Position numbers and translations under genes: made by a program. From an uncultured Ignatzschineria sp. (GTDB taxonomy: Bacteria; Pseudomonadota; Gammaproteobacteria; Cardiobacteriales; Wohlfahrtiimonadaceae): a DNA stretch of 46,854 bases. This document shows, in pieces, positions 1 through 46,837 of this stretch (the stretch's first letter is position 1; each line of letters begins with the position of its first letter). The notes beneath the pieces were generated by a model. It was not told where the DNA came from. It ran no database searches and saw only the letters and a program-made list of their open reading frames with translations. The stretch lies in contig CANRON010000003.1 in the NCBI GenBank assembly GCA_947632245.1, positions 1-46,854 on the forward strand. Reading direction: 5' to 3'.

Positions 1-50
1 CCTCCGATAATCGGAAGCCAAATGACTAAACTTAACCAAGAGATCTGCAT
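1..50 (-). CDS. nuoM: NADH-quinone oxidoreductase subunit M, N-terminal fragment (runs off window)
   Basis: Reverse complement from position 50 reads MQISWLSLVIWLPIIGG, a NuoM-like N-terminus directly downstream of nuoL. Confidence 0.75.
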   Translation of the reverse strand, partial: MQISWLSLVIWLPIIG

Positions 51-42140: not shown

Positions 42141-42277
42141 TATACTCAAAACATGCGTATTTGCATGAGATTAATATAGGTCTGATCGACTGCTTTCTAC
42201 ACGATATCCTAATTAATATTCTTCAATGCATTCACGCTTCTCTACTCATCACCTTTGGATTTAAGCTGCTCTATCTT

Positions 42278-44182
42278 ATGGACTATCCTCAACATTTTGG
42301 CGTCATTGTTATTGGTGGCGGACATGCCGGCACAGAAGCCGCACTTGCATCAGCACGTTTAGGCGTACCGACTCTCCTTTTAACTCACAACATTGAAACT
42401 CTTGGTCAGCTAAGCTGTAATCCAGCAATTGGCGGGATCGGCAAAGGCCAAATTGTGAAAGAGATCGATGCTATGGGTGGCGCAATGGCACACGTCACTG
42501 ACCTCTCAGGAATTCAGTTTAGAGTTTTAAACGCCTCTAAGGGGCCTGCAGTGCGTTCAACGCGCGCGCAAGCCGACAGAACGCTGTATAAAACTGCGAT
42601 GCGAAAAATTCTTGAAAACCAAAAAAATCTTTACCTCTTCCAGCAAGCAGCAGATGACTTGATTTTAGAGGGTGATAAGGTCTGCGGCGTTATTACGCAA
42701 ACGGGGATTCGCTTTCATGGTGAAACAGTTATTTTAACGGCAGGCACATTCTTATCAGGTCTGATCCACATTGGGATGCAGAACTATAGTGGTGGACGCA
42801 TGGGCGATACGGCCTCGATTCCACTTTCACACAAGCTCGCAGAACTTAATCTCGGAAAGGGTCGCCTAAAAACAGGAACTCCGCCTAGAATTGATGGTAA
42901 GAGCATCGATTTTAGCAATATGAGCGAACAGCCCGGAGATACACCGACACCTGTGTTCTCCTATTTAGGATCGCGGAAGGATCATCCAACCCAAGTATCT
43001 TGTTGGACAACTTACACGAATGAACATACGCATGACATTATCCGCAGTGGCCTTGATCGCTCTCCGATGTATGCAGACAACAAGACAATTGAAGGCTTAG
43101 GTCCTCGTTACTGCCCATCGGTTGAAGATAAAATCATGAAGTTTGCGGATAAAGATCAGCATCATGTGTTCTTAGAACCAGAAGGCCTTGATACGCATGA
43201 ATACTATCCAAATGGAATCTCCACAAGCTTACCCTTTGATATTCAGATCAAGCTTGTCAGATCGATTCCCGGCATGGAAAATGCACATATTACGCGCCCA
43301 GGCTATGCGATTGAATATGACTTTTTTGATCCGCGCAATCTCAAGTTCACCCTTGAAACAAAAGCGATCAACAACCTCTACTTTGCAGGGCAAATTAACG
43401 GCACGACAGGATATGAAGAAGCCGCAGCACAAGGATTACTAGCCGGCTTAAATGCGGCTCGTCGTTATCTTGAGAAAGATGCGTGGTACCCTAAGCGTCA
43501 TGAAGCTTATACCGGCGTAATGGTAGATGATTTGATCAATCTTGGCGTACGTGAACCCTACCGTATGTTTACTTCCCGTGCTGAACATCGCCTTATTTTA
43601 CGCGAAGATAATGCCGATGAGAGACTGACGCCGATCGCACGCGAATTGGGTCTTGTTGATGATTATCGCTGGGAAAAATTCCTCGAGAAACAAGAAGCGA
43701 TCGTTCAAGCAGAACAACGTTTTAAAGATTGGATGATCCGCATCGACTCTCCGGCCGGCATCAAAGTGCAAGAAGCGCATAAAGTGGAATTAAAGCAGAA
43801 TATTCGTGCCATTCATCTCCTGAAGCGCCCAGAAATAAATCTTGAAAAACTCATGAATCTTCATGATGAGAATGGCCCTGATTTAACAGAGTTCTGTGAT
43901 GAAGTGCTGCAAAAAATTGAGATTCATACAAAATATGAAGGCTATATCAATCGCAGTATTGAAGATATCAAACGCAATCAAAAATTTGAAAATGCAGCAC
44001 TCCCACAAAATATTGATTACAACAAAATTGAAGGGCTCTCTATTGAGATTCAAGAAAGGCTCAATCAAGCACAGCCTGAAACACTCGGTCAAGCATCTCG
44101 TATCCAGGGCGTAACCCCTGCTGCGACATCACTGATCTTAGTGTACCTAAGAAAAGGGAAACTCCCCGTTAAAAAAGCTTAA
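42278..44182 (+). CDS. mnmG: tRNA uridine-5-carboxymethylaminomethyl(34) synthesis enzyme MnmG (GidA)
   Basis: [46 protein letters not shown]; the ORF extension to 42161 is unlikely to be translated. Confidence 0.97.
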
Positions 44183-44197
44183 AAGGATTCAGACAGC

Positions 44198-46759
44198 ATG
44201 CGTAAAGCAATACTTACAGTCGCATTATCATCCATTCTCTCATTCTCTTTGAGCGCTGCGAACCCCAGCGCATCATCTCCTGAGAGCTTGCATCCCCCTA
44301 CAACTGCGACTGCGAGTAAAGCTGCGTTTCAAAGTTATTTTAATATGACAAGCAATGAGATACAGTCTCTTGTGAAGAATGCAAAGCCAGGCTTAATTTT
44401 CACACTACAAACATGGTTGAGGATTGCCGGCTACTATGATCCGCAGTTAAAAATCGATGGTCTGACTGGCCCTACGACACGCCGAGAAATTGGCGCTTAT
44501 CAGAAAACCTTAGGGCTCAAACCGGATGGTATTCCTCATCAAAATTGGGAAACACCCCTGGAAACACTCGTGCGTAAAGACGTCCAACAACAGTTGACGT
44601 TACTAGGTTTTTTTAATGGCACAATTGATGGCAAAAATAATCGCGCAACAGAAGATGCGATTAAAGCATATGAAAAGAGTATCAATATTCCGGAAGTAGG
44701 AACGCTTGCACCTTTTACGCTATTGCATCTCTTCAACCCGCATTTTTTACCCAAAGAAGCACCACAATCCACAGGTGTAGACACTGCACGATTAAGTGAA
44801 GATACCCCTGCCCCGCGCAATCCCATCCGTTCCTCTCATGCAGAAGATCCTAAAGCTATCGATCCCCTTTCCAATAGTGATCATGATAGTGAGGAAGATG
44901 AGGATGAAGTTATCGATATGACGCCACTTGATTTTAAAGATGCTTTTATCTTTATGCCGCCGGCACAAATAGTGGTTGCTGAAATTATTCAGAAACAGGA
45001 AATCGCCGAAGAACAGCGAATAAAAACTCAACAAGAAAATGCAGATAAGCAAGCGCGACTAGAACAAGTTAAAACGCTCGCGAACCTCGAAACTCCCATT
45101 AAACTATTCTCTTTAACCCGAGCAGAAGTTGACCAACTCGTCATTAAAGCCCGTAATCCTAATATTTTCTTTACACAAACAGCACTCACACTACTAGATC
45201 TTTATAATGGCCCGCTAGATGGCATGAATGGTCCTGCAACCAGAGATGCAATTCGTGCCTTTGAACGAGCAATTGGCCATCCGGAAACAGGCAAACTCTT
45301 ACCAAGATGGGAAAACCCGCTGCGCCAGATCATGTATCGATTAGTACAAGCTCGCCTGAAAGAGGATGGATTTTATTCAGGCGATATCGATGGTCTTTCA
45401 GGGCCTGGCACCCGTGATGCTATTAAAGCTTATGAAAAAAGCAGCAACACAGAAACCACAGGACAATTAACGCCAGCACTGCTTTTAACGCTCTTTAATA
45501 CAGATATCGCTAATACGGCTATGAATGCAGATAAGCTAGACAATATGGATCTGCCAAGCGACGCCATTGAAGATGTAGCTGAGGACAGTTCTAAACCTGT
45601 CTCTCAAGCAGAAAATGATGAACTGAAAGCAGATAGCAACAAACAAGAAGAAAAATACCGCACAGCAGTAAGCGGCTTTGATCTATCCCATGCCAAAAGC
45701 AGTGAAGAGAATGCATTTATACAGTTACAACTTGCTTACTTAGGATTTTATAAAGGAAAAGTTGATGGTTTGACAGGTCCTGGCACAAAACGGGCGATCG
45801 AAGCATTTCAGAAAGCATTTGATCTTTCACAGACCGGCAAATTTGATACCAAAACGACAGAGAAACTTGAAGTAGAAACAATCAATAAATTCCAGCGCTA
45901 TCTTCAACGTACCGGCTACATGAAGGATAACCCTACAGGTACTTGGGGTCCTAAAACACGTAGAGCCGTAGGAATTTTAAAAAATCGTTATGGCTATCAA
46001 GTCAGCGATAAGCTCGATATCCCCGCTTACCTAATCTTAATCGATGAAGAACAAGATACCCAATTTGCCAAAGAGTATTATGAAAAGGTGATTAAAGCAC
46101 GAGAGGCTGAAAATGCCGTTAAAGACACGCAAGCATACCTGATTGGCTTCGGTGTTTTAAATGGTAAAGCGGATGGAAAAATGGGTCCTGCAACGGAAGG
46201 TGCAATTAGTACTTACCGCTCACAACAAGGGCTTCGAAAAGGGAATCAAATTGATACGCAACTTTTGGAATCCTTTAAAAAAGCAGCGCCCAAACAAGCT
46301 CAAGCCTACCTACAACAACTCGGCTACCCTATCAAGCCCGATGGTATTTTTGGTACTAATTCAAAAAAACAGCTCAATGCCTTTTTAACAAAGCACCGTA
46401 AGGCAAAATCGGATGTTATTACCCCTGAAATCTTGATGGATCTAAAAAATGCGGTAATCGCACATCTTGCGACAAATCGTACACAAGCATCACAACAAAG
46501 TAATGCCAATACAACGCAAAAAACAGGAGCCGCGCCAAGATTACAAAAGGGACTACAACAAAATGCCGTGGCGAGCAGAGCACCGAGCAATACCGTGAAT
46601 GGTCCGCTCCAAATTGTTCGCAATAGCGCAGGGAGTGTTGTGGGATGCAAGGTGAATAATATTCAGATGGGGACAGATTGGTGCTCCGGCAAGCGTAATG
46701 GTCAAAGCTGCCGAGTCCTTTATAAAAATGGACGCGTTCTTTCAATGAACTGCCGTTAA
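44198..46759 (+). CDS. Exported multi-repeat PG_binding_1-like protein with C-terminal four-Cys module
   Basis: N-terminal signal sequence; about eight repeats of the type LxxLGFYxGxIDGxxGPxTRxAIKAYxK. Confidence 0.85.
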   Translation: MRKAILTVALSSILSFSLSAANPSASSPESLHPPTTATASKAAFQSYFNMTSNEIQSLVKNAKPGLIFTLQTWLRIAGYYDPQLKIDGLTGPTTRREIGAYQKTLGLKPDGIPHQNWETPLETLVRKDVQQQLTLLGFFNGTIDGKNNRATEDAIKAYEKSINIPEVGTLAPFTLLHLFNPHFLPKEAPQSTGVDTARLSEDTPAPRNPIRSSHAEDPKAIDPLSNSDHDSEEDEDEVIDMTPLDFKDAFIFMPPAQIVVAEIIQKQEIAEEQRIKTQQENADKQARLEQVKTLANLETPIKLFSLTRAEVDQLVIKARNPNIFFTQTALTLLDLYNGPLDGMNGPATRDAIRAFERAIGHPETGKLLPRWENPLRQIMYRLVQARLKEDGFYSGDIDGLSGPGTRDAIKAYEKSSNTETTGQLTPALLLTLFNTDIANTAMNADKLDNMDLPSDAIEDVAEDSSKPVSQAENDELKADSNKQEEKYRTAVSGFDLSHAKSSEENAFIQLQLAYLGFYKGKVDGLTGPGTKRAIEAFQKAFDLSQTGKFDTKTTEKLEVETINKFQRYLQRTGYMKDNPTGTWGPKTRRAVGILKNRYGYQVSDKLDIPAYLILIDEEQDTQFAKEYYEKVIKAREAENAVKDTQAYLIGFGVLNGKADGKMGPATEGAISTYRSQQGLRKGNQIDTQLLESFKKAAPKQAQAYLQQLGYPIKPDGIFGTNSKKQLNAFLTKHRKAKSDVITPEILMDLKNAVIAHLATNRTQASQQSNANTTQKTGAAPRLQKGLQQNAVASRAPSNTVNGPLQIVRNSAGSVVGCKVNNIQMGTDWCSGKRNGQSCRVLYKNGRVLSMNCR

Positions 46760-46801
46760 TCAGGTCCCATTTTCTCAAAAAGTCTATCTTAATGACTCAA
46801 A

Positions 46802-46837
46802 AATCGCCGATCGCTAAAAGGGATCGGCGATTTTTTA
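46802..46837 (+). terminator. Terminator downstream of PG-binding protein
   Basis: ATCGCCGATCgctaaaaggGATCGGCGATTTTTT perfect stem plus T-tract. Confidence 0.88.

Follow-up and report, generated by a model that had tools for sequence, protein, structure and literature searches.

The PG_binding_1 domain (PF01471) is already known, and SleB, SltB2/SltB3, the zinc D-Ala-D-Ala carboxypeptidase 1LBU and CtpB all carry it. Peptidoglycan binding has been shown for the SltB2/SltB3 type, DGxxGxxTxxxPho serves as the peptidoglycan-binding, or ligand-recognition, motif of PF01471 domains, and members of the family can also pack against other protein domains (PMC12547810). In the type 2 secretion proteins GspA/ExeA and EpsAB, PF01471 engages the wall non-hydrolytically during complex assembly (PMC9239104). 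Enzyme-less arrays of several PG_binding_1 domains also occur elsewhere, for example in cyanobacteria.

The gene examined here belongs to Ignatzschineria, a genus of the order Cardiobacteriales (NCBI taxonomy), and starts with an ATG codon. The window, that is, the whole stretch of DNA analysed (46,854 nucleotides), is one complete contig of a draft assembly of 175 contigs, and its relevant features are listed in Table 1. The 15-bp gap between the stop codon of mnmG and the ATG, together with the strong terminator-like hairpin after the gene (fold -23.3 kcal/mol, z = -6.0), suggests that the gene is probably co-transcribed with mnmG. The hairpin was missed by a simple terminator scan but detected by a folding computation. 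The same upstream neighbor was found in all members of the Wohlfahrtiimonadaceae with available flanks, at a distance of ~20 bp or less or with a slight overlap.

Table 1. Coordinates of the repeat-protein gene, its parts and its flanking features in the window (residue numbers refer to the 853-aa product).
Feature	Residues	Position	Strand	Basis or remark
mnmG (gidA)		42161..44182	+	directly upstream; ORF and protein sequence
Putative ribosome-binding site AAGGA		44183..44187	+	10 nt 5' of ATG; read from sequence
853-aa repeat-protein gene, predicted exported		44198..46759	+	ORF, Pfam PF01471
Signal-peptide-like N-terminus	1-21	44198..44260	+	inspection; conserved with congeners
Twin module 1 (R1+R2)	~67-180	44396..44737	+	
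Acidic linker 1		44738..45157	+	predicted helix at residues 258-295; poorly conserved, 21-34%
Twin module 2 (R3+R4)	~321-434	45158..45499	+	
Acidic linker 2		45500..45706	+	mostly low-confidence in model
Twin module 3 (R5+R6)	~504-614	45707..46039	+	
Helical spacer, modules 3 to 4		46040..46117	+	within predicted helix 623-650
Twin module 4 (R7+R8)	~641-750	46118..46447	+	
Basic, Q/N/T-rich linker		46448..46582	+	
Four-cysteine C-terminal beta domain (C817, C829, C838, C852)	~796-853	46583..46756	+	invariant cysteines, model, distribution
Intrinsic-terminator-like hairpin, then T-run		46800..46834	+	3' of stop codon

The initial annotation had described an exported protein built from about eight PG_binding_1-like repeats with no catalytic domain, and these elements held up. 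PF01471 matched the protein in eight separate stretches (Pfam; E = 1e-71, 237.4 bits against a gathering cut-off of 23), each of which exceeded the cut-off individually in a six-frame search of the genome, and all eight core peptides quoted in that annotation are present in the product. No enzymatic domain was recognized in Pfam or NCBIfam; the enzyme-family matches that were obtained cover the binding domain and fall below the NCBIfam cut-offs. AlphaFold predicted the three-helix fold, with helices in every repeat and a pLDDT of mostly 74-94 in the repeat blocks. The N-terminal domain of SleB matched in sequence (E = 4e-6), and Foldseek returned a local match to its structure 6tci (42% identity over 62 columns, rmsd 1.5, probability 1.00; E 0.32 with the whole chain as query). 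The ligand motif known from the SltB2/SltB3 type (PMC12547810) is shared by the repeats, being exact in R1, R3, R4, R5 and R7 and changed at one position in R2, R6 and R8; shuffled sequences gave a mean of 0.005 exact motifs, with a maximum of 1. PF01471 matches by themselves do not prove peptidoglycan binding, which we infer for the repeats from their sequence. Export is likewise expected from inspection of the N-terminus (MRKAILTVALSSILSFSLSAA/N), which resembles a classical Sec signal peptide without a lipobox. Only two other PF01471 matches were found in this genome by the six-frame search: a YkuD L,D-transpeptidase of 680 aa that also carries a scaffold domain and is LdtD-like in architecture (L061:8201-10243), and a protein of 342 aa whose sole Pfam match is a single PG_binding_1 domain at the C-terminus (L062:2124-3152).

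The eight repeats are arranged as four twin modules, with the paired domains head to tail. A repeat HMM placed their starts at residues 68, 127, 324, 381, 506, 563, 642 and 699, giving steps of 59, 57, 57 and 57 within pairs and of 197, 125 and 79 between them. In the AlphaFold model, a continuous helix of ~21-22 residues (115-136, 369-390, 551-572 and 687-707) bridges the two domains of every pair, closing the first domain and opening the second. Steps of 55-59 residues made up 73 of 139 across the protein's family, 65 of them exactly 57, versus 0 of 96 in unrelated multi-repeat proteins, a comparison that is indicative because the repeats used to build the HMM are those of the window, and the outside proteins, mostly cyanobacterial and alphaproteobacterial, come from a handful of lineages. 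When duplication of the pair as a unit was considered, the repeat tree and the identities weakly favored grouping A with A and B with B (0.32/0.30 vs 0.27). The predicted twin modules can be trusted; their relative placement in the full-length model cannot, because the linkers mostly have a pLDDT below 50 and the pTM is 0.33. Linkers 1 and 2 carry net charges of -12 and -10, and modules 3 and 4 and the C-terminal domain carry +7, +8 and +7. Among congeners, identity is 55-85% in the modules and 71-78% in the C-terminal domain, above that of linkers 1 and 2 (21-52%) or of these linkers taken together with the N-linker (18-52%), indicating that selection acts on the modules and the C-terminal domain.

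The protein ends in the four-cysteine C-terminal domain. Its four cysteines are invariant in 17 of 17 aligned sequences and presumably form disulfides, and its model is a small beta fold (pLDDT 86.9, pTM 0.63). Searches of Pfam, PDB sequences and PDB folds gave no significant match; cystatin-like and elongation-factor-P-like identities were rejected, the best sequence E (0.13) and the best fold E (0.75) not being significant. The domain could be a new small fold. A profile search found it, one copy each, in 30 of 32 Cardiobacteriales genomes, including all 24 with a completeness of 90% or more and low contamination. Completeness is only 72% and 78% in the two genomes that lack it, and in one of them (G029) the protein is present with its end not seen. 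In a sample of the class (369 genomes) the domain occurred in four only, all Cardiobacteriales, and in a sample of the phylum (399 genomes, overlapping with the first) it occurred in two Cardiobacteriales, with one marginal match besides. Outside the order it was thus found in 0 of 365 class genomes and 0 of 396 phylum genomes, one spurious match apart. The latter (G422, E 7e-4) is a partial match whose frame lies opposite a hydrolase-like gene, and it was judged to be chance. Since the four-cysteine tail is near-universal in the Cardiobacteriales and absent elsewhere in the genomes sampled, an undescribed wall-bound scaffold of this order is suggested.

Scanning the genome contigs with the single protein gave no match; the relatives were obtained with an alignment-based scan. 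Eight sampled congeners encode proteins of 1037-1103 aa, compared with 853 aa in the window, and these orthologues retain an ankyrin-like N-terminus and a degenerate first domain, whereas in the window protein the signal peptide leads straight into module 1. The missing segment was not found elsewhere in the window's genome, although the same query detected it in each of five relatives. Provided that the draft assembly is correct, the absence is a lineage-specific loss, and the eight-repeat protein is therefore a derived, shortened state. One further orthologue (G010, L057:4631-6547) appears split into three frames of 187, 129 and 242 aa, owing either to an error in the draft assembly or to a genuine break. 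The seven single-module relatives that were read, which we take from the order to be Cardiobacteriaceae, are 366-649 aa long; in them a single twin module follows an ankyrin-like N-terminus, and a long linker leads on to the four-cysteine tail. The N-terminal regions of these relatives and of the Ignatzschineria orthologues can be aligned (hhalign probability 98.9), and the number of twin modules is one in these genomes and four or more in Ignatzschineria. The earlier description had captured the repeats, but neither their pairing nor the four-cysteine domain, nor the existence of an order-wide family, nor the loss at the N-terminus.

The domains, their pairing, the ligand motif, the lack of a recognized enzyme and the conservation are direct observations, and we consider that they are best explained (probability about 0.6) by a soluble periplasmic, non-catalytic, multivalent peptidoglycan-binding scaffold that presents the C-terminal domain. 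After export and signal cleavage into the periplasm, the four rigid twin modules, each with two PG_binding_1 domains in direct register, would attach to peptidoglycan at multiple points, either along glycan strands or across them, and so bind with avidity, the flexible acidic linkers acting as spacers. The disulfide-capable C-terminal domain would thereby be held at the wall, where it may engage a partner or serve as the functional head. The M23/LysM gene found beside the single-module version in Cardiobacteriaceae-like genomes (next paragraph) also speaks, weakly, for this reading.

The main rival is that the protein acts as a cofactor or regulator of peptidoglycan hydrolases. On this view the twin modules bring it to the wall, possibly to the septum, so that its C-terminal domain can activate or restrain an amidase or lytic enzyme in the manner of LytM-domain factors. 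Gene neighborhoods give some reason to consider it. In all eight Cardiobacteriaceae-like genomes examined, an M23/LysM gene with an NlpD-like set of domains is found close upstream of the relative; where the interval was inspected, a NUDIX gene stands between the two (L063, L064, L066, L067 and L068, the three genes in a row), and surE precedes this row in L063, L064 and L066. NlpD is the activator of a septal amidase in E. coli, so that an NlpD-like neighbor is a weak hint of a function in wall remodeling or septation. This linkage is, however, not kept in the Wohlfahrtiimonadaceae, where the neighbor is mnmG, a tRNA-modification gene, and the context in that family therefore gives no envelope signal. 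As the C-terminal domain also lacks significant similarity to any known activator, we regard a cofactor role as unlikely.

The second rival is a tether between peptidoglycan and the inner or outer membrane, with the C-terminal domain or, in relatives, an uncleaved N-terminal membrane segment providing the link. The initial annotation had offered a multivalent tether and a scaffold together; the scaffold is the best reading, by inference, and the tether is less supported, because no membrane or lipid anchor was seen in the Ignatzschineria species of the window. Neither Pfam nor inspection revealed such an anchor or a membrane-binding domain in the 853-aa protein, and the signal of this protein and of its congeners looks cleavable and has no lipobox. 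The orthologues of the genus Wohlfahrtiimonas (L051, L052, L053, L054, L055 and L056) have a hydrophobic start with no obvious cleavage site on inspection, which suggests that they may be membrane-anchored and is the point that favors a tether. For the window protein we find this role improbable, more so than that of a hydrolase cofactor. That the repeats do not serve to bind the cell's own wall, being instead helical protein-protein modules or part of a secreted wall-targeting factor directed against other cells, draws on the ambiguity of bare PG_binding_1 matches, the deviating motifs of R2, R6 and R8 and the scores against phage endolysin families, but it is very unlikely, given that those scores come from the PG-binding domain common to both, that no lytic domain or phage context was found, and that conservation is vertical and single-copy across the Cardiobacteriales.

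The near-universal, single-copy and apparently order-confined distribution of the protein makes it a candidate for an envelope function peculiar to this order, the Cardiobacteriales. One might tentatively go further, and with distinctly less confidence, to a lineage-defining envelope component with a required role in wall organization, in which an undescribed four-cysteine fold is carried on a variable number of twin modules, expanded in some lineages and sometimes lost. The twin module is also a testable design, in which a shared helix would keep two predicted ligand sites a fixed distance apart and which is repeated with flexible linkers; it would allow one to ask directly how wall binding depends on avidity and spacing.

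Two other identities were rejected. The HxsA model TIGR03979 scored above its cut-off (NCBIfam; 191.3 vs 121.65 bits) because repeated PG_binding_1 domains inflate the score; the protein has a single His-Xaa-Ser and thus no repeats of it, and TIGR03978, presumably the paired radical-SAM maturase that partners HxsA, reached at best 29 bits against a cut-off of 370 in the window's draft genome. Automatic annotation may therefore call this family HxsA wrongly. A phage or plasmid origin is at odds with the vertical, syntenic presence of the gene, and the tblastn matches behind it were weak and partial.

Our literature search, which lay mostly outside subscription journals, found no report on the 853-aa protein and none in which twin modules with a 57-residue step are combined with a four-cysteine domain restricted to one order. 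Among the described systems, SleB, SltB2/SltB3, 1LBU and CtpB each have one PF01471 domain beside an enzyme, whereas the window protein has eight of them, arranged as four pairs, but no enzyme. It also differs from GspA, a multimodular ATPase, in having neither an ATPase nor a membrane domain. The lack of a recognized enzyme, which the initial annotation had presented as unusual, holds here but is not peculiar to this protein, as our HMM survey found cyanobacterial proteins (e.g., in Pseudanabaena, loci L082-L089) that likewise have 3-7 PG_binding_1-like stretches in short frames with little room for an enzyme. The steps in these arrays are mostly 67-130 residues and never 55-59, and the C-termini shown have no four-cysteine tail. 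What distinguishes the Cardiobacteriales protein from all of these is thus the 57-residue twin module, the four-cysteine tail and the restriction to a single order.
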